Source of the DNA: Candidatus Sumerlaea chitinivorans
GTDB lineage: Bacteria; Sumerlaeota; Sumerlaeia; Sumerlaeales; Sumerlaeaceae
Assembly: GCA_003290465.1 (NCBI GenBank)
Contig: CP030759.1
Span: forward strand, 598,672-662,671
Length of the DNA stretch: 64,000 nt
Direction: 5' to 3'
This document shows positions 11,367 through 40,302 of this stretch, in pieces. Position numbers and translations under genes: made by a program. Each line of letters begins with the position of its first letter. Position 1 is the first letter of the stretch. The notes under the pieces were generated by a model, which saw only the letters and a program-made list of their open reading frames with translations, searched no databases and had not been told where the DNA came from.

Positions 11367-12422
11367 TCAGATCGTGTCGAATGCTTCGGGAAAACGGCAG
11401 CGGCGAATCGCCTCGTCGTAGGAAATGAGTCCCTGTTGGTACAACGTCTTGAGAGATTTGTCCATGGTCATCATCCCCAGTTCGTAGTTCATTTGGAGGA
11501 CGGTGTAGAGCTGCTCGGTCTTCGCATTGCGAATGATATTTCGCACCCCCACCGTGGCGATTAAAATTTCGGTTGCCACCACGCGCCCACGTCCCATGGG
11601 CACTGGCACGAGCTGCTGCGCGATAATTGCCTGGAGTGTCCCTGCAAGCTGGATTCTGACTTGTTGCTGCTGATAGGGAGGAAAAACATCGATGATTCGG
11701 TCCACGGTCTGAACGGCATCGGGGGTGTGAAGCGTCGCCAAAACCAAGTGACCTGTCTCCGCAGCGGTGAGTGCTGTGGCAATGGTTTCTAAGTCCCGCA
11801 TCTCGCCGATGACCACCACATCGGGGTCCTGGCGGAGAACATGTCGCAGCGCGTCAGCAAAAGATTTGGTGTCGCTTGTCACCTCGCGCTGCTTGATAAT
11901 AGATTTCCGGTTCTTGTGGATGTATTCAATTGGGTCCTCCACGCAGATGATCATCTTGTGTTGCTCATTGTTGATCTGATGGATCATGGCGGCAAGGGTA
12001 GTCGTTTTGCCGCTCCCTGTGGGACCCGTGATGAGAACAAGACCATTGTTCCGTCGAGCGATCTCTTCGGTGACAGGTGGCATGCCAAGCTCGCGCAGGG
12101 TGCGGATGTTCTCACTTACTACTCGAAACGCTGCTTCCACCGCCCCGCGTTGTTTGTGAACGTTCACACGAAAGCGCCCCACCTCAGCCACCTCAATGCT
12201 GAGGTCCAATTCCCACTTCTCCTCAAAGAGCGCCTTTTGAGCGTCGTTTAGCAACGAGTAGATCATGCGCTGGGTATCAGCTGCGGTTAGGGGAGGGAGG
12301 TCTAAGACCTCCAGCTCCCCGTCAATCCGCAAAATGGGTGGGGCGTTTTGCGTCAGATGCAGGTCGCTTGCACCTTGCTCAATTGCTTCCACAAGTAAAT
12401 GTTGGATTGTGATCGGCGGCAT
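11367..12422 (-). CDS. pilT: Type IV pilus retraction ATPase (PilT family)
   Basis: 351 residues, close to the usual PilT length. It powers pilus disassembly and twitching motility as a hexamer at the inner membrane. It has an N-terminal PAS-like domain (HLTQNAPPILRIDGEL) and a RecA-like ATPase with Walker A GPTGSGKT at 133-140. The Asp box is at CVEDPIEYIH, Walker B at VVVIGEMRDLE, and the His box at TGHLVLATLHT. The C-terminal helices carry the AIRRC segment near the end (PilT proteins typically carry an AIRNLIRE-type element; here it is shortened). The partner extension ATPase pilB is 2 kb away, separated by ferritin and RNase D genes and in the opposite orientation. No pilin or pilC gene is in the window. 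Confidence 0.93.
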   Translation of the reverse strand: MPPITIQHLLVEAIEQGASDLHLTQNAPPILRIDGELEVLDLPPLTAADTQRMIYSLLNDAQKALFEEKWELDLSIEVAEVGRFRVNVHKQRGAVEAAFRVVSENIRTLRELGMPPVTEEIARRNNGLVLITGPTGSGKTTTLAAMIHQINNEQHKMIICVEDPIEYIHKNRKSIIKQREVTSDTKSFADALRHVLRQDPDVVVIGEMRDLETIATALTAAETGHLVLATLHTPDAVQTVDRIIDVFPPYQQQQVRIQLAGTLQAIIAQQLVPVPMGRGRVVATEILIATVGVRNIIRNAKTEQLYTVLQMNYELGMMTMDKSLKTLYQQGLISYDEAIRRCRFPEAFDTI

Positions 12423-14510: not shown

Positions 14511-16232
14511 ATGGCGAGTGCAATGGAAAGGCGACTAGCAGAGATGCTGGTTCGCGACAACGTCATCACGCAGGATGAATTGGAACATGCTCTCGAACTG
14601 CAAGAAAAGCAGGGAGGGAGCCTCGGCAGCATTCTCATTGATAATAAGTATGCTAACGAATGGGAAATTGCTGCCGCGATTGGCAAACAACTCAACGTGC
14701 CGTTCATCACGTTGTCGCATTACGAGATTGACCCATCCATCCTAAAGAGCATCCCTGAGGATCTCGTCCGCAAGTATCAGATCGTACCCATCGACAAAAC
14801 AGGCGATACTCTGACGGTCGCTCTCTCTGATCCCTCAAACATTTATCTACTCGACGAACTGCGCTTGCTCACAAATTGCAAAATTGTGCCGGTGATCTCT
14901 TTTGAATCTGACATCAAAGAAGCCATCGAGCGCTACTATCCCAAGAGTGAGTCTGCACTCGACGAAATGCTGAAAGAAATCAGCGATGAAGAGACCGCGG
15001 TCCTAGAGGCACTCGAGAGCGGCATGACCGAACCGGCTGAAACAGAGGTAGAAGAGGGAGAGGTCGAGGCGACAGACGCACCCGTCATCCAGCTCGTGAA
15101 CCTCATCGTCCACGATGCTATTCGAATGCGGGCAAGCGATATCCACATTGAACCCTACGAAAAGGAACTGCGCCTCCGATACCGCATCGACGGCGTACTT
15201 CATGAAATGAAGGCCCCACCAAAAAAGTTCCAAAATGCCATTGTCTCGCGCATTAAGATTATGAGCGACCTCGACATTGCAGAACGACGACTTCCTCAGG
15301 ACGGTCGCTTCAAGGTCACAGTTCAAGGGCGCTCCATCGATTTTCGTGTTTCCACCTGCCCCACAGTGTTTGGGGAAAAGGTCGTGATCCGTATTCTCGA
15401 CCGCGGCAATCTCATGCTCAATCTCACGGATCTTGGGATGGACCCCGAGGTGCTGGCCGGATTTGAAGCCCAAATCCGCGCCCCCTGGGGAATGATTCTC
15501 GTGACTGGTCCGACAGGTTCTGGTAAGTCCACTACTTTGTATTCCGCCCTCAACACCATTAACGATCCGCGCAAGAATATCATGACCATCGAAGACCCAG
15601 TCGAGTACCAACTCCGCGGCATCAACCAAGTCCAGGTTCATCCTGAAATCGGCCTAACGTTTGCGGAGGGGCTCCGTAGCTTCCTGCGCCAAGACCCGGA
15701 TATCATCATGGTCGGCGAGATTCGTGATAAGGAAACAGCTGAAATCGCTGTGAAGGCTGCCTTAACGGGTCACTTAGTGCTTTCCACACTCCATACCAAT
15801 GATGCGCCAAGCACGATCAACCGTCTGACGAACATGGGGGTCGAGGCGTTCCTTGTGACTGCATCCGTGAACTTGATTGTTGCCCAACGTCTCGTGCGGC
15901 GGATTTGCGAAAACTGCAAGCAGTTCTACGATCCTCCAGCGGAATTGCTGCGGTCTCTACAGATTCCTGAGGACGCCAAATTCGCACGAGGGGCGGGGTG
16001 TGATCGCTGTCTGAATTCGGGCTACAAAGGCCGAGTGGCGCTCTATGAGCTCTTGCATCTCTCCGACGCGATGCGCGACAAAATTATCGAGGGGATATCC
16101 ACGACTCAATTGAAGCGCATGGCGATTCAAGAGGGAATGATCACGCTACGCCGTGCTGGCCTACAAAAGGTTGCCCAGGGCGTGACCACGATTGACGAGG
16201 TTTTGAGCGTCACCGCACCTGATGAACGTTAG
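14511..16232 (+). CDS. pilB: Type IV pilus / type II secretion assembly ATPase (PilB/GspE family)
   Basis: 573 residues. The N-terminal GspE-N domain (RLAEMLVRDNVITQDEL) is typical of PilB and GspE. The ATPase core contains Walker A GPTGSGKSTT near residue 332, the Asp box MTIEDPVEYQL, Walker B IIMVGEIRDKET and the His box TGHLVLSTLHTND. A four-cysteine zinc site (CENCKQF ... CDRC) follows, as in extension ATPases and absent from PilT. The start could be the ATG at 14511 or the one at 14523; neither has a strong ribosome binding site. Between the N domain and the core is an acidic linker (TEVEEGEVEATDAP). Whether it serves a pilus or a secretion system cannot be decided, because no other assembly gene is adjacent. 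Confidence 0.92.
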   Translation: MASAMERRLAEMLVRDNVITQDELEHALELQEKQGGSLGSILIDNKYANEWEIAAAIGKQLNVPFITLSHYEIDPSILKSIPEDLVRKYQIVPIDKTGDTLTVALSDPSNIYLLDELRLLTNCKIVPVISFESDIKEAIERYYPKSESALDEMLKEISDEETAVLEALESGMTEPAETEVEEGEVEATDAPVIQLVNLIVHDAIRMRASDIHIEPYEKELRLRYRIDGVLHEMKAPPKKFQNAIVSRIKIMSDLDIAERRLPQDGRFKVTVQGRSIDFRVSTCPTVFGEKVVIRILDRGNLMLNLTDLGMDPEVLAGFEAQIRAPWGMILVTGPTGSGKSTTLYSALNTINDPRKNIMTIEDPVEYQLRGINQVQVHPEIGLTFAEGLRSFLRQDPDIIMVGEIRDKETAEIAVKAALTGHLVLSTLHTNDAPSTINRLTNMGVEAFLVTASVNLIVAQRLVRRICENCKQFYDPPAELLRSLQIPEDAKFARGAGCDRCLNSGYKGRVALYELLHLSDAMRDKIIEGISTTQLKRMAIQEGMITLRRAGLQKVAQGVTTIDEVLSVTAPDER

Positions 16233-17786: not shown

Positions 17787-20123
17787 ATGCGAGCCAACGG
17801 ACTGATGCAGAAAAGCAGCCATCCTACAAGCTCCGTGCAAAGCCTCTTGCTCCTGAGCTTCATCGCCTTTCTGGCTTTGGGTATTGGTCGGAGCTCGAAC
17901 GCAAAATCTTGGGCCGATGAACGAGCCACAACCGCAACGGAAGCTGAGTTAGTGGAAACGAAGGGTTTGGCAACCGAATATGTGCGAGTGCTTGTCGCAT
18001 TCAAGGGGGTCTATCGGATCTATGGGCGCGATCTTGCAGCAGCTGGCGTGGACCTCGCAAAAATAGACCCTCGTAAGCTTACCTTGTGGAACGAGTGGAA
18101 AGAAGTTCCCATCGCAGTGAAAGTGAAGGAAGAAGGGCGTTTTGGGGCCGACGACACGATTGAGTTTGTCGGGCAGCCACCCCTCGGGACGTTTTCCACC
18201 TACAAGCCGTACAATTACTACAATGTGTATTTCCTAAGTTGGGAGGCATCGCAGCCCCTCCGTTATAGCACCACCGTGCTGCGCCGCAGTGAAGCCACCT
18301 TGACCAATTCGAGTTTTTGGGCAGTCCTTCATCTCGAGCAAGACAACTATTATCGAGAGTCGCGACTCCCGCGTGGGATTACGGACAATTTCTATTGGTG
18401 TCATTACAGTAGTGAACAGACTGGCACCTATCCCATTCGCGTAAGCTTCCCGCACTTCGACAAAAACCGTGGTGACCGCGTTCACCTCCACTTTAGGATC
18501 TTCGGCTGGTCGGATGTGCCGGGGCTCAAACCTTCGCACAAATTCTCAATCCAGTACGGAGACGACGAAGAGAAGGACAGTCCGCGTTACGACTGTGGAA
18601 CTTTTGCTTTTGATGGTGTGCAGTACTACGATTTTGTGACCTCTCTTCCCGCGTCGGTCTTAGGTTATCGACAGCGATTTATCTTCAAGACACCTCCCGA
18701 TCGAGCGAACGTTGTGGATTCGATCAGTCTCGACTGGATCCGCGTGAGCTACTGGCGAAAGCTCGATGCGGATCACAGGAATGTGTTTGAGTTTAACAGT
18801 AACGTTTACGGAGCCAAGTATCCCGCGCAATTTTCAGTCAAGAACGCCAAACCGCGTTCACGAGTGTTTTGCCCGAGTCAGGCGAAGATTTACGAGCCGT
18901 TCAACCCAGAGGCGACAGAGATCGTGGTTGCGGCCGACAATCGCGAAACCACGTATTTGCTTGTGGCGGAAAATGGCATTTTGACGCCTGACGTTCTCGA
19001 CTATCGAAAACGTGACCGCTTGTCCGATTTCGTCTCTTCCAGCACTGAGGTTTTGGTCCTCTACGATACGTATCTTCGCGATCCAGCGATGCTCTACGCG
19101 GCGTACCGCAAACAGCAGGGTTTAGAAGTCGCGGCCGTGGACGTTGTTCGCATCTTCGACGAAATGAATGCGGGATTTATCGACGACATTACGTTGAAAC
19201 GATTCATTCGCTATGCGGCTGCGAAGAGTCCGCGGCTCACCTACCTCGTATTGTTTGGTGATGGCACCTCGGACTATCGGATGTGTCAAACCTTTGACCA
19301 AGCGGATCCTCCGCGTGTGGGGATTCCCATTCATTGGATTGAGAGCCCAGCGACCGTTCGCACCGGAGGATACGTGGACGACAATTGGTATGCGAGTTTC
19401 AAGAGCGCGAACACGCCGGATTTGGCGATTGGTCGGATTCCCGCAGCAAACGAGGTTCAGGCATACGAGTACGTCCGTAAGATTATCGAGTACGAGACCT
19501 TCCAGGCGTCGAAAAACGATAAAATGGTCGTCATTTCGAGCGTGGAATCGCGTTTCCAAGACATGGCGGCTTCCGTGCGCGACCGCTACCGAGACCACTT
19601 CACGACCATTACACTTCTCTTTCCCGAGACTTCAGTGGCCACAAGGGAGGTCGAGCGGCTCCGCGAAGAAATTGATCACGGCATTCAGTTCCTCTACTAT
19701 ATTGGGCATGGGGGAGCATTTGTTTGGCGGGTGGGGCCAGTGGATTACTCTAAGCAGAAAGATCTCTTTACGCCCGCCGATGTTGCTAAGCTGCGCAATC
19801 GGCTCCATTATCCAATTATTGCCGCCTCGAGCTGTTACACGACAGCGTTTGATGCCCAGTGGAGCATTGGCGAAGCGTTTTTGCTTCAGCCGAAAGCGGG
19901 CGCAATCGCCGTGATCGGTGCACCTTGGAAAAGCTCTGCTTATGAAGATCACGCCTTTCACACGCGTTTACTGGATTTTTATTGCAGCTCCGCTTACAAA
20001 CGGCTGGGCGATGCCTATCAAGCCGCAAAAGCAGCGTTTCGCCCGAAAGATGATGACTATGTAGATGTACAAACCATGACGCTCATTGGAGATCCATGCC
20101 TCCTGTTAGCTCGAAAACATTGA
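17787..20123 (+). CDS. Exported peptidase C25 (gingipain/PorU-like) family protein
   Basis: 778 residues with a hydrophobic signal segment at about 21-37 (LLLLSFIAFLALGIG). The N-terminal half is beta-rich and resembles the PorU-type domain (GVYRIYGRDLAAAGVDL, DDTIEFVG). The C25 caspase-like domain follows from about residue 420. The catalytic dyad is visible: His641 in YYIGHGG and Cys683 in AASSCYT, with the C25 feature GAIAVIGAPW after it. Known C25 proteases act outside the cell or on the surface, and PorU acts as a sortase in type IX secretion. No type IX component or C-terminal sorting domain is seen here. The start is uncertain (ATG 17787 or 17805, neither with a clear ribosome binding site). 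It overlaps the next lipoprotein gene by 28 bases. Confidence 0.87.
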   Translation: MRANGLMQKSSHPTSSVQSLLLLSFIAFLALGIGRSSNAKSWADERATTATEAELVETKGLATEYVRVLVAFKGVYRIYGRDLAAAGVDLAKIDPRKLTLWNEWKEVPIAVKVKEEGRFGADDTIEFVGQPPLGTFSTYKPYNYYNVYFLSWEASQPLRYSTTVLRRSEATLTNSSFWAVLHLEQDNYYRESRLPRGITDNFYWCHYSSEQTGTYPIRVSFPHFDKNRGDRVHLHFRIFGWSDVPGLKPSHKFSIQYGDDEEKDSPRYDCGTFAFDGVQYYDFVTSLPASVLGYRQRFIFKTPPDRANVVDSISLDWIRVSYWRKLDADHRNVFEFNSNVYGAKYPAQFSVKNAKPRSRVFCPSQAKIYEPFNPEATEIVVAADNRETTYLLVAENGILTPDVLDYRKRDRLSDFVSSSTEVLVLYDTYLRDPAMLYAAYRKQQGLEVAAVDVVRIFDEMNAGFIDDITLKRFIRYAAAKSPRLTYLVLFGDGTSDYRMCQTFDQADPPRVGIPIHWIESPATVRTGGYVDDNWYASFKSANTPDLAIGRIPAANEVQAYEYVRKIIEYETFQASKNDKMVVISSVESRFQDMAASVRDRYRDHFTTITLLFPETSVATREVERLREEIDHGIQFLYYIGHGGAFVWRVGPVDYSKQKDLFTPADVAKLRNRLHYPIIAASSCYTTAFDAQWSIGEAFLLQPKAGAIAVIGAPWKSSAYEDHAFHTRLLDFYCSSAYKRLGDAYQAAKAAFRPKDDDYVDVQTMTLIGDPCLLLARKH

Positions 20124-31353: not shown

Positions 31354-32268
31354 ATGAGAGGGCAAAAGCGAACACCGTTAGCGAGCGCGAGCTTCCTGCT
31401 CGGCGTGGTGTTGCTCGCTCGAGCAGCGTACGCCCAAGAAATGGCAATCATCGCAGATGCCCTCAATGTTTGCGCACTCGACACGACCTATTACGTGACC
31501 CCCGAAGCTCTGAATGACACCGATGACCCGAACGCAAATCCGTTGTACGATTATATTTCTGATGGAGGGGGCACGTGGGTGGTGCCGCCCTCGGAAGGGC
31601 GCTTCCTTCCAACCCGCGTCAACCTGCTGACGAGCTATCATCGCTGGCGTGGGCCGTACCTGACTTTTCAGCCGGGGAGGACACAAGCTGGCATCCAACC
31701 GTACGACCAAGGGTCCCCGTTAGATCCGTGGGGTTCGCCCTACTACCTTTTTTCACCGCTTGGCCTGTTGCGTGGCGACAGTGGGTCGGTTACCCTTGAG
31801 CTCTATGGGGATTTCTTCGATCGCTATGCTCTTGTGTCACTTGGCCGCGATGGAGTACAAAGTTCCGACGATCTTATCTATACCTTTGGTCCGGGTGTTA
31901 CGAGCTTCGCACTTACAAGTTTGCGAGGGCCACAGGTCGAGCGGTTAGGTTCTGGGCTTCAATCTCTGTCGGCCGCTGGATCGCAGGGCAGTCCGCCCAC
32001 GCCAGATTTTCGGGTGCCTGCGGGATCCGTCCTTACGATACGTGGAGTCAATCTCGGAAGTGTGCAAGGGACAGCGCGCGTCATGTGGGGTGACATCGAG
32101 CTGACCAATATCAGCAACTGGACGAGCCGCGAGGTGACAGTCACCCTCCCGCAATCGCTGCACGGGCTTGCCCAACTTTATTTCATCCGAGATGCGCAGC
32201 AGACGAATCCAATCTTCTTGGAGATCGTTGATTACACCGCAGCAACTGATTGGTCACTTTACGAGTGA
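31354..32268 (+). CDS. Secreted protein with a GspG-pseudopilin-like core and an IPT/TIG domain
   Basis: 304 residues from the ATG at 31354. A signal peptide (SASFLLGVVLLARAAYA) replaces the usual prepilin leader and hydrophobic stalk. The next 130 residues match the soluble core of type II secretion pseudopilin GspG: IIADALNVCALDTTYYVTPEAL is split here into ADALNVCALDT and YYVTPEAL, then RWRGPYLTF, LDPWGSPYYLFSPLG and YALVSLGRDGVQSSDD, the last corresponding to the calcium-binding loop. Residues about 225-297 form an IPT/TIG immunoglobulin-like fold (VLTIRGVNLGSVQGTARVMWGD, in family terms a TIG start; REVTVTLPQ). An exported pseudopilin core without the stalk is unusual; the function is unknown. 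Confidence 0.75.
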   Translation: MRGQKRTPLASASFLLGVVLLARAAYAQEMAIIADALNVCALDTTYYVTPEALNDTDDPNANPLYDYISDGGGTWVVPPSEGRFLPTRVNLLTSYHRWRGPYLTFQPGRTQAGIQPYDQGSPLDPWGSPYYLFSPLGLLRGDSGSVTLELYGDFFDRYALVSLGRDGVQSSDDLIYTFGPGVTSFALTSLRGPQVERLGSGLQSLSAAGSQGSPPTPDFRVPAGSVLTIRGVNLGSVQGTARVMWGDIELTNISNWTSREVTVTLPQSLHGLAQLYFIRDAQQTNPIFLEIVDYTAATDWSLYE

Positions 32269-36634: not shown

Positions 36635-39037
36635 CTACGCCGGAGCAGTATGGCGGTGGCGTTGAGCGTAACGGCGCACGCTGTTGCGAAGTTCTTGAAT
36701 CGCATGCAATTGCTCGGCCATTAATTCGTGCTCGCCATAACGGTAGCCGTAGTACCATTGTGTGACTTGTGCAAAGCTCGCAAATTCCGGAATACTCTTC
36801 GCGATTCGTTCTGCGAATTCACGTGGTGTTTCGTGAACTGCCCGATGGTATCCCAATCGCTCAAACTCTTTTAGCAGTTGCCCGTAGAACTCAGGCGGAG
36901 GTGACCAACCGCGAGCGCTTCTTTTGGTTTTCCGGCCCTTTGCTTTGGCCCAGCGACCGCGAAAGCTCAGCAAGACTAAAACCAGCGCCCCACCGACAAG
37001 CACAACGCCCGCAATCGAAGGCGCCAGTTCGCGCATGCTGTCGTCGGCAGCGTAGTTTCCGCCGCCCCATTCTGCAACTTCCTCATGATGACTTGCGAAC
37101 ATCCGTAAAAACGTTCCCGCCACGAATCGCTGATCCTCGATGGAGAAGTCGATCATGACGCGATACCATCTCAGTTTCACCGAATCCCACAGCCGCATCG
37201 CGGTCAGCAAGTAGGGATTAAACTCGATAGCGCGCCCGATGGCATCGGGGGGCGTTGGGTCAAATGTCATCCATCCGTAGCCCGGGAAAAAGACCTCAAC
37301 CCATGAATGAGCATCGCGTTGGCGAACTGTAAAAGACTTCGCAAAATTATTCCATTCGGCGCTGTAATAGCCGTTCACGATTCTCGCCGGGATATCTAAA
37401 GAGCGCAGCAACATCACCATGGCCGTGGCGAAATACTCGCAGTGGCCGCGCCTACTTTCGAAAAGGAAATCTTCGACCGGGTTTTTGGGGTTATCTGGGA
37501 TTTGTTCGAGCGTGTATTGGTAGCGACTTCTGAGGTAGGATTCGATAGCAAGCGCCTTCTCATACGCAGTTTGACGGTTTCCGACGATCTGCATGGCGAA
37601 GGCTCGAAGTTTTTGAGTGTCAAGGCTGTTCGGAATCTGCAAACAGGCCTCCACATAACGTGGCGAGGCCATTCCAAGTTGTCCTCCAAATGCGCCGCGC
37701 ATTCCCGGATTTCGACCAGCGCGTGGTCCTCGGCCTGTAAAAATGTCGTCCGGACTCAGGGGACGAGAATCTGTTCGCTCCCCGCTTGCTCTTAACGTTT
37801 CATCCGCAGCTCTCGCGAGGTGCTCAGCAAACCGGCGAGCAATTTCCAAAGGATGTGTCGTAGGGGACTCACTTCCAGAAGTTGACGTCTGGACACCCGG
37901 AATCGGGCGCTGGTAGCGTTCGGGCGGCTCTCGTTGTTCTAATGTTTCGACACGTGAAAAGACTCGGTAATGGATTTCTTTAGCCGGTACGTAGGGCAAC
38001 CAAGCGCTCGCACTATATGGGTCGGAAAGTACTACTTGATCGAGCTCCAGCACAAGTCGCTGAGGGAATGTTTCGCCAAAGATAAACCGTGTCACGTTCG
38101 GGGGTTGCACAATCGTGTTCCATCGGGCCGGTAGGGGGCGGATGGTCAATTGCGGAAATGGGGCTTGATCGGTTGTCCAAGTACTGCGTCGCCAGCGACG
38201 TCCGTCGAAGTAATCCAGGGCGACCCCACGCAGCCGGATGGCGTTGGGGCGCAACTCCGGCTGATCTGGGCGTACGTACAGCGCGACGGAGTTGTCGAGT
38301 TGAATTTTCCGATAGGATCCAAACTCGACGCTTTCCTCGAAAGCTGACACCGCGGGTGGCTCGCCCCTCGCACCAAGGGTCGCAAGTAGCCGCCGCGTGG
38401 AGAATCTTGGAGTGATAACAAAAACGGCGATGGAAATGCAGAGGATAAGCAACGTGAGAAAGAGCACGACGAGGCGTAGAGAGGGGACCCGAAGTTTGCG
38501 GATAGATTCCGGAAGATATGGCGAGCTTGAGAAAATGCGAAACTTCTTCGGTGCAGGAGCCGCCGCAGGTGCAAACTGTTGCACAGACAGCGCACCCATC
38601 AGCATGATAGTAAGCATCAAGGACCAACTTAGCAGCCCCGCATAAACAAGAAACGCAAATCCGAACACAGGCGACGTGGTTAGCACCGCAGCGGCAAGGA
38701 CCTGAAAGAAACTAATCACGTAAACTGAAAACGCGTCGCGCGGTCGCCGCATGGAAAGCACTTTCACCAGCTGAAGAAAGAGAAAGAAATATACGGTCGC
38801 GTTCAACAGGCTGGATCGGGCAATGGGCAAGATTGCAACGAATCCAATCAACGTCACGAGATCCCACAGGAATGTGGGAACGCGAGCCAACCACTTCCTG
38901 ATGAAGAAAGCAGCTCCTAAGAGAGGAAAAGCAGGGAGGATGAGGTACGGCGGAAACTCCCCTGTCAGATAAAGCATGAGAAATCCGAGCAGCGCAACCA
39001 AGGTGACCGACAAGGCAAAGGCTCGTTCCAGAGTCAT
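36635..39037 (-). CDS. TgpA-type membrane transglutaminase-like protein
   Basis: 800 residues. The N-terminal 200 hold about six membrane helices (LVALLGFLMLYLTGEFPPYL begins the first; VSFFQVLAA-like helices follow), then the DUF3488 periplasmic region. The transglutaminase core is complete: Cys about 533 in RRGHCEYFATAM, His in RDAHSWVEVFFP and Asp in MTFDPTPPD. A further membrane helix (IAGVVLVGGALVLVLLSF) and a C-terminal cytoplasmic DUF4129-like domain (PREFAERIAKSIP) complete the usual TgpA order. TgpA proteins are essential in Pseudomonas, but the reaction is not settled. The start overlaps the DUF58 stop by 4 bases; the usual partner MoxR is missing here. Confidence 0.93.
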   Translation of the reverse strand: MTLERAFALSVTLVALLGFLMLYLTGEFPPYLILPAFPLLGAAFFIRKWLARVPTFLWDLVTLIGFVAILPIARSSLLNATVYFFLFLQLVKVLSMRRPRDAFSVYVISFFQVLAAAVLTTSPVFGFAFLVYAGLLSWSLMLTIMLMGALSVQQFAPAAAPAPKKFRIFSSSPYLPESIRKLRVPSLRLVVLFLTLLILCISIAVFVITPRFSTRRLLATLGARGEPPAVSAFEESVEFGSYRKIQLDNSVALYVRPDQPELRPNAIRLRGVALDYFDGRRWRRSTWTTDQAPFPQLTIRPLPARWNTIVQPPNVTRFIFGETFPQRLVLELDQVVLSDPYSASAWLPYVPAKEIHYRVFSRVETLEQREPPERYQRPIPGVQTSTSGSESPTTHPLEIARRFAEHLARAADETLRASGERTDSRPLSPDDIFTGRGPRAGRNPGMRGAFGGQLGMASPRYVEACLQIPNSLDTQKLRAFAMQIVGNRQTAYEKALAIESYLRSRYQYTLEQIPDNPKNPVEDFLFESRRGHCEYFATAMVMLLRSLDIPARIVNGYYSAEWNNFAKSFTVRQRDAHSWVEVFFPGYGWMTFDPTPPDAIGRAIEFNPYLLTAMRLWDSVKLRWYRVMIDFSIEDQRFVAGTFLRMFASHHEEVAEWGGGNYAADDSMRELAPSIAGVVLVGGALVLVLLSFRGRWAKAKGRKTKRSARGWSPPPEFYGQLLKEFERLGYHRAVHETPREFAERIAKSIPEFASFAQVTQWYYGYRYGEHELMAEQLHAIQELRNSVRRYAQRHRHTAPA

Positions 39038-40266
39038 CGGCCCACACCTCGGACTTTGCAGAATTGCTTGCTCGCAATCAAGGGGAGCGCCACGGTCTCG
39101 CCGTCAGCGCGTGGACAGCGATCCTCTTCAACTAAGCGAATTTCCCAGTCCCTCACATCGAGAGTAGTTGTTCCAGGTGGCCACGCAAATAAGGTATCAA
39201 TAAACTGGATAACCACCACGTCCGCTTCCACTGCCGGCAGCCGGATAGAATATCCCGAGAGATCGAGTTCGATAAGGGCAAGCGCTTGAAGGATGCGGTC
39301 GAGTTGTCCTTCCTCCTCAGCACATGGAATGAATCCACGGCTGGTTAAGAGGCCGACGGGGTGACGATGCTCCAAGAAGTAGTAAGCAAGAGAAGCAGTA
39401 AAGGCCACCGCTATCTCAAAAAGGTTTGTAAGCTCCTCACTGCGTGTTACTCCTTGAGGCAGGGAGTTCGGAAGAACTAAGAGAACCGCTCGACGTTCCT
39501 CTCGCTCAAATTCCATAACCATGAGCCGCTGAGCTTTCGCGGAGCTTCTCCAGTGAATTCTCCGCATGGGTTCCCCCTGCACGTACTCGCGCAACCCGTA
39601 AATATCTATGCCCTGTCCACGCTGACTTCGGGACTCCTGCCCCAGAGTCGAGAAGGAGTCTTTTAGCGAATCGTCGAAGGCGTAAATTGGAGGGTAGACG
39701 AGTACTTCAGCAGGCCGGTGGAAATGGACGGTGCGCTCAACGGTTCCAAATGGGAAACGCGACGAAATCGTGATCTTGTCCAATGCCACGAGACCACGCC
39801 GTTGAAAAATCGGGTGCACAGTCTCGTAGGCAACGGATCGGGGAGCGCCCGGATTTACCACTTCACAAAACGTTCCACCCACTGCCTTTCCTTGCGGAGT
39901 GTGATCTTTCACCATGAGCGCGAAGCTGCGCCACCAATTGCTTTTCCAAATACGAAAGTGGATCCGCGCAGGGTGTCCTGCTATGATTCGCCTTGGCAAA
40001 ATGCGTTCGACATGGAGTCCACGTATGTTCTGGGGAGAAACGACCCCGTGCGCCACAAATATCGCGATCAGAAAACCAAAAAGAAAATACACAAGATTGG
40101 TGCCCGATTCCCAAGCGGCAAAACCGATAACAAAAATGAGTAGCAGCACCACAAAGCCAATAAGCGTGACGGAGTACGTTCGAAACTCACGGGGGTTCTG
40201 AAAGAAACCAATGCGAGACCAGTGCTTTACGCGATCCCACAAGCTGGTTGTGACGTTGATGTTCAT
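39034..40266 (-). CDS. DUF58 protein (MoxR/TgpA-associated)
   Basis: About 410 residues from the ATG at 40266; a GTG at 40296 is possible. Two N-terminal membrane helices (YSVTLIGFVVLLLIFVIGFA and NLVYFLFGFLIAIFVAHGVV) precede a cytoplasmic part. The DUF58 signature is at YVQGEPMRRIHWRSSAKA, followed by a von Willebrand A-like fold. It is the second gene of the DUF58-TgpA pair found in many bacteria, normally downstream of a MoxR AAA ATPase. Here the divergent neighbour is a sigma54-dependent AAA regulator instead, about 95 bases upstream. Function is inferred only from co-occurrence. Confidence 0.88.
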   Translation of the reverse strand: MNINVTTSLWDRVKHWSRIGFFQNPREFRTYSVTLIGFVVLLLIFVIGFAAWESGTNLVYFLFGFLIAIFVAHGVVSPQNIRGLHVERILPRRIIAGHPARIHFRIWKSNWWRSFALMVKDHTPQGKAVGGTFCEVVNPGAPRSVAYETVHPIFQRRGLVALDKITISSRFPFGTVERTVHFHRPAEVLVYPPIYAFDDSLKDSFSTLGQESRSQRGQGIDIYGLREYVQGEPMRRIHWRSSAKAQRLMVMEFEREERRAVLLVLPNSLPQGVTRSEELTNLFEIAVAFTASLAYYFLEHRHPVGLLTSRGFIPCAEEEGQLDRILQALALIELDLSGYSIRLPAVEADVVVIQFIDTLFAWPPGTTTLDVRDWEIRLVEEDRCPRADGETVALPLIASKQFCKVRGVGR

Positions 40267-40302
40267 GACCGCTTGACCGTTGAAATCAAATACCACCGTC
40301 GC

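Follow-up and report, generated by a model that had tools for sequence, protein, structure and literature searches.

The gene at positions 31354-32268 (+) of the analysed window, a stretch of 64,000 nucleotides from Candidatus Sumerlaea chitinivorans (Candidatus Sumerlaeota), encodes a protein of 304 amino acids, in which a Sec-type signal peptide is followed by a GspG-type pseudopilin core, an IPT/TIG domain and, at the very C-terminus, a conserved WxLY tail. The reading frame and its coordinates were confirmed exactly. To judge from sequence comparisons, the gene encodes a phylum-conserved pseudopilin head that has no stalk and is combined with a TIG domain and a C-terminal tag. Each of the landmarks quoted in a preliminary description is present exactly in the reading frame, and its account of a soluble pseudopilin-like protein, with a signal peptide replacing the prepilin leader and with an IPT/TIG domain, is supported and extends to a family conserved class-wide. 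Full-length orthologues obtained in the search for relatives belong to Candidatus Sumerlaeota (BRC1), and their alignment (A1) contains 20 invariant columns, with the signal peptide, the core, the TIG domain and the C-terminal tryptophan common to the aligned sequences. A natural stalkless pseudopilin head of phylum-wide occurrence directly poses the question whether such heads serve beyond polymerisation, and, being soluble, it lends itself to structural studies and binding assays.

The predicted signal peptide comprises residues 1-27 (31354..31434, +), with a hydrophobic region and an AxA site, and cleavage would fall between MRGQKRTPLASASFLLGVVLLARAAYA and the following QE. Neither a class III prepilin leader nor Glu5 was found at the N-terminus of the query, and the Pfam N_methyl model matches 0/21 orthologues vs 10/10 related pseudopilins. 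Matches to a prepilin-leader regular expression fall behind the hydrophobic region, and an AxA site, computed together with the hydrophobic region, is present in 16/21, in agreement with the cleavable signal peptide described earlier. What is kept of the pilin helix is the C-terminal half of alpha-1 (residues 28-44, QEMAIIADALNVCALDT, 31435..31485, +), as placed by the start of the HHalign alignment and by the AlphaFold helix. Due to the absence of a prepilin leader, of hydrophobic alpha-1N and of Glu5, the family is best filed outside functional pseudopilins. The AlphaFold model has a single helix over residues 9-44, as would suit a degenerate pilin helix that escapes cleavage and continues to serve as an anchor in the filament or membrane. 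This is very improbable, given the prevalence of the AxA site, the complete lack of N_methyl matches and the proline-rich or long spacers that separate the hydrophobic segment from the core in several orthologues.

The pseudopilin core (residues 28-186, 31435..31911, +; profile comparisons, alignments A1 and A2) is not significant when the query alone is compared with Pfam T2SSG (E=0.58, 10.7 bits, cut-off 21), and the query is likewise below the cut-off of TIGR01710, therefore the claim of a GspG-like core was tested through relatives. T2SSG is matched by 9/21 orthologues at E<=0.1 (best 1.5e-6, Pfam), and the orthologue profile A1 aligns with p4, a prepilin-type pseudopilin of the phylum, over 170 columns with a probability of 99.9 and E=1.5e-33 (HHalign), this alignment starting directly after the membrane helix of p4. 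Profile-profile comparison of the family with the canonical GspG of the same genome gave a probability of 94 and E=1.2e-7, and the solved GspG structures 5wda (5e-4) and 1t92 (5.5e-3) are matched by the family profile. Hence, the proposed core is upheld by the orthologues and by profile comparisons, but not by the query sequence taken singly.

The order of elements is that of GspG, the major pseudopilin of type II secretion (T2SSG, TIGR01710), namely alpha-1C, W-GPY, the LDPWG-PY hairpin and the S-G-DG---DD calcium loop, whereas the prepilin leader and alpha-1N are missing and long insertions, the TIG domain and the C-terminal tag are added. The hairpin LDPWGSPYYLFSPLGLL, a pseudopilin hallmark (31720..31770, +), is conserved in A1 with D124, P135, G137 and L138 invariant and W126, G127, P129 and Y130 nearly invariant, and the residues of alpha-1C and of the calcium loop are also kept. 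The loop SLGRDGVQSSDD (31837..31872, +; D166, D172 and D173) is the equivalent of the GspG calcium loop, is conserved in A1 and corresponds to the loop of 3G20 less one residue. In this E. coli pseudopilin, the loop coordinates Ca2+ through the side chains of D117, T122 and D125 (PMC3396595), and the core of the present family is probably calcium-bound. Conservation of the hairpin and the calcium loop across the class suggests selection acting on more than the fold.

In a tree of 99 cores, the 21 stalkless sequences form one clade (SH-aLRT 98), which joins p1-p4 of the tandem pseudopilin operon in a group (98) that leaves out p5 and canonical GspG; as the tree was built quickly and its GspG branch is long, the relationship is given to the p1-p4 group and not to one sister. 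The GspG-type identity proposed earlier is thus retained as to the pseudopilin core and refined as to descent, the gene being a paralogue of the tandem operon located elsewhere in the genome rather than canonical GspG. The p1-p4 proteins of this Sumerlaeota operon are the closest relatives by both tree and profile, but they have the N_methyl leader together with a complete alpha-1 helix, and no TIG domain, from which the stalkless protein differs on each count. In the same genome, the tandem GspG-like set is located at C1:1955-1958 kb (p1-p4 at C1:1954.8-1957.9 kb), and canonical GspG is an orphan gene whose neighbours at C1:1061 kb are dnaA and an lpxA-like gene. The gene could have originated from a duplicated pseudopilin of this operon, the duplicate having dropped the prepilin leader along with the half of helix alpha-1 that lies in the membrane, and having acquired a conventional signal peptide and, at its C-terminal side, an IPT/TIG domain, so as to become an exported soluble protein. 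Profile A1 finds some match in 40/40 genomes of the phylum; strong, mostly full-length matches (E below 1e-60) occur in 26/40, and the remaining ones are partial matches to other pseudopilins. The 14/40 genomes in which a full-length orthologue is missing keep related pseudopilins, and some of these assemblies are incomplete.

A cluster of GspH/I/J/K-like prepilins and five GspG-like pseudopilins is phylum-wide and is located at C1:1952.5-1958.6 kb in the same genome, where its GspK-like member carries a Lamin Tail Domain. In other genomes (L084, L085, L088, L089), GspH-, GspI- and GspJ-like prepilins and a GspK-like gene are followed by the tandem GspG-like set, the H/I/J/K naming being our own reading by motif. 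The whole genome of 3.3 Mb contains 46 N_methyl prepilin matches, 39 of them over the cut-off, and hence a large pilin repertoire.

The IPT/TIG domain (residues 219-293, 32008..32232, +) was located by Pfam PF01833, PDB profile matches and Foldseek. As described earlier, it is recognised in the query itself (PF01833, residues 223-275, E=4.7e-6, 26.9 bits, cut-off 20.9), and 17/21 orthologues match at E<=0.1 (best 1.8e-12, Pfam). AlphaFold prediction from the single sequence was unusable (pLDDT 41), and the model built from a 24-sequence alignment was used instead (pLDDT 89.5, pTM 0.84). Following the N-terminal helix, this model contains a small sheet with the D166-D173 loop and a TIG sandwich; its order of helices and strands matches GspG, and the last ten residues are of low confidence. 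Foldseek matches include a CGTase domain, EBF3 and 8co1, all of them TIG domains. With the whole model, GspG is absent from the best 50 matches, a list dominated by TIG domains, so that this search did not confirm the core fold. The likeness to 8co1, a type II secretion structure, is limited to the TIG domain (TMt 0.68 by Foldseek, E=5.1e-6 by profile). A literature search on TIG domains combined with pseudopilins found nothing relevant.

Geobacter PilA-C / Spc (GSU1497), which we take to be a stalkless secreted pilin head, is alike in this respect and would suggest a split pilin of the PilA-N/PilA-C kind, in which the head would be built into the filament together with a short pilin stub made as a separate protein. 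We regard such an arrangement as most doubtful, since the alpha-1C half stays on the head; the added TIG domain is a further difference from PilA-C. When a short pilin stub was sought in the genome, none was found, the shortest N_methyl reading frame having 129 aa from stop to stop, and the Geobacter-type split pilin was rejected for absence of the partner (PilA-N and PilA-C are so named in PMC9207759). An extra non-pilin domain on a pilin head is also known from modular pilins such as PilB and PilC of S. sanguinis, which keep the prepilin leader and stalk (PMC10191384), whereas the stalkless protein has neither.

The preliminary description overlooked the C-terminal tag TAATDWSLYE (32236..32265, +), which is common to other exported proteins. 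The W..[YF] ending occurs in 21/21 orthologues, with W300 invariant and Y303 nearly invariant. The DNA pattern for WxLYE-stop has 6 matches in the same genome vs 0 for the reversed-pattern control, and the five further matches (C1:327782, 1489690, 2863359, 2909099 and 3233165), with C-termini of the [DE]WxLYE type, end larger ORFs including FG-GAP, LTD and alpha/beta-hydrolase-like proteins. Over 40 genomes of the phylum, [DE]WxLYE-stop gave 44 matches vs 0 reversed controls, but only 5 vs 4 controls in 116 other genomes, which is chance level. Replacing W by F in the pattern left 2 matches, neither with a real stop codon, and a looser pattern without the final E is about two-fold enriched. 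Among 51 tagged loci examined, 46 end ORFs of at least 120 aa, and where these ORFs are closed a signal peptide can be read in most; there is also a preference for A, S or T at -10 and for A or V at -8. The tagged exported proteins are of mixed kinds (FG-GAP, PQQ, alpha/beta hydrolase-like). Since the signal-peptide score was too permissive as a statistic (27/29 tagged vs 124/184 background ORFs), tag counts and inspected N-termini were relied on instead. No C-terminal sorting model of NCBIfam matched the query or six tagged proteins, a search of the genome for SprA_N (type IX) gave no match, its control likewise matching nowhere, and a literature search on Sumerlaeota sorting signals or pili found nothing relevant.

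Genomes G003, G005 and G012 contain several tags and no full-length orthologue, hence the stalkless protein is probably a client, not a component, of a route for export or anchoring that reads the tag. Somewhat short of an even call, we propose that in Sumerlaeota a C-terminal tag of about ten residues ending in [DE]-W-x-L-Y-E, without a membrane segment or known sorting domain, may send proteins outside the cell or hold them there, and that the stalkless pseudopilin head may be a client linking this route with the pseudopilus. If confirmed, the tag would be a linear C-terminal signal for export or anchoring in a phylum whose secretion biology is little studied. We know of no common linear signal for T2SS cargo.

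As to genomic neighbourhood, the gene is an orphan: in the matches listed, synteny is confined to the closest genera, and no conserved operon partner was found beyond close relatives among those matches. The ATPases that the preliminary description had placed nearby are indeed in the window, as a PilT/T2SSE-like gene (11367-12422) and a PilB-like MshEN+T2SSE gene (14511-16232), but at 15-20 kb they are only loosely near and unlinked; the suggested link to a pilB/pilT machine is not supported, as there is no conserved neighbourhood among the matches listed. The orphan gene, its patchy presence in the phylum and a tag shared with unrelated exported proteins are all consistent with repurposed cargo, that is a commonplace exported or surface-located protein, in which the head inherited from a pseudopilin now serves for binding or structure and plays no part in the machine. 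TIG domains are common in extracellular proteins, which also fits. Repurposed cargo is a real possibility, weakened by how strongly the pseudopilin-specific hairpin and the calcium loop are conserved across the class.

The reading tentatively preferred, placed only slightly over repurposed cargo, is that of an exported, non-polymerising pseudopilin head which docks on an exposed filament as cap or adaptor. The protein would cross the inner membrane by Sec and lose its signal peptide to signal peptidase I, the core, probably with calcium, would fold in the periplasm, and the route reading the [DE]WxLY tag would carry the protein outward or anchor it. It would not polymerise from the membrane; since the head would retain the pseudopilin-pseudopilin contact surfaces, it would most likely dock on the filament of the operon, at its exposed end or flank, thereby presenting the TIG domain. 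That a head without its stalk is in principle able to bind partners has a precedent in soluble, truncated XcpU, which lacks Glu5 and nevertheless assembles into the pseudopilus tip complex (PMC6211770). The tip of the filament is made of minor pilins, and grafted domains are known from modular pilins (PMC10191384). Counter to docking are the orphan gene and the genomes without a full-length match, and the core may simply have kept its fold for a use unconnected with the machine. A stalkless head is also how a competitive inhibitor would be expected to look, acting in the periplasm as a decoy or terminator that would restrict growth of the filament by binding to pseudopilin heads; this is improbable, as a decoy needs neither the TIG domain nor the tag, and a tag common to many exported proteins makes confinement to the periplasm less likely.

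Two further loci of the window can be mentioned. A Peptidase C25 protein (17787-20123) resembles PorU, the type IX sortase (NF052324 3e-57 and NF033707 3e-53, both below cut-off), and by this resemblance could be a candidate processor of the tag. At 36635-40296, a TgpA-like transglutaminase (800 aa) adjoins a DUF58 protein.
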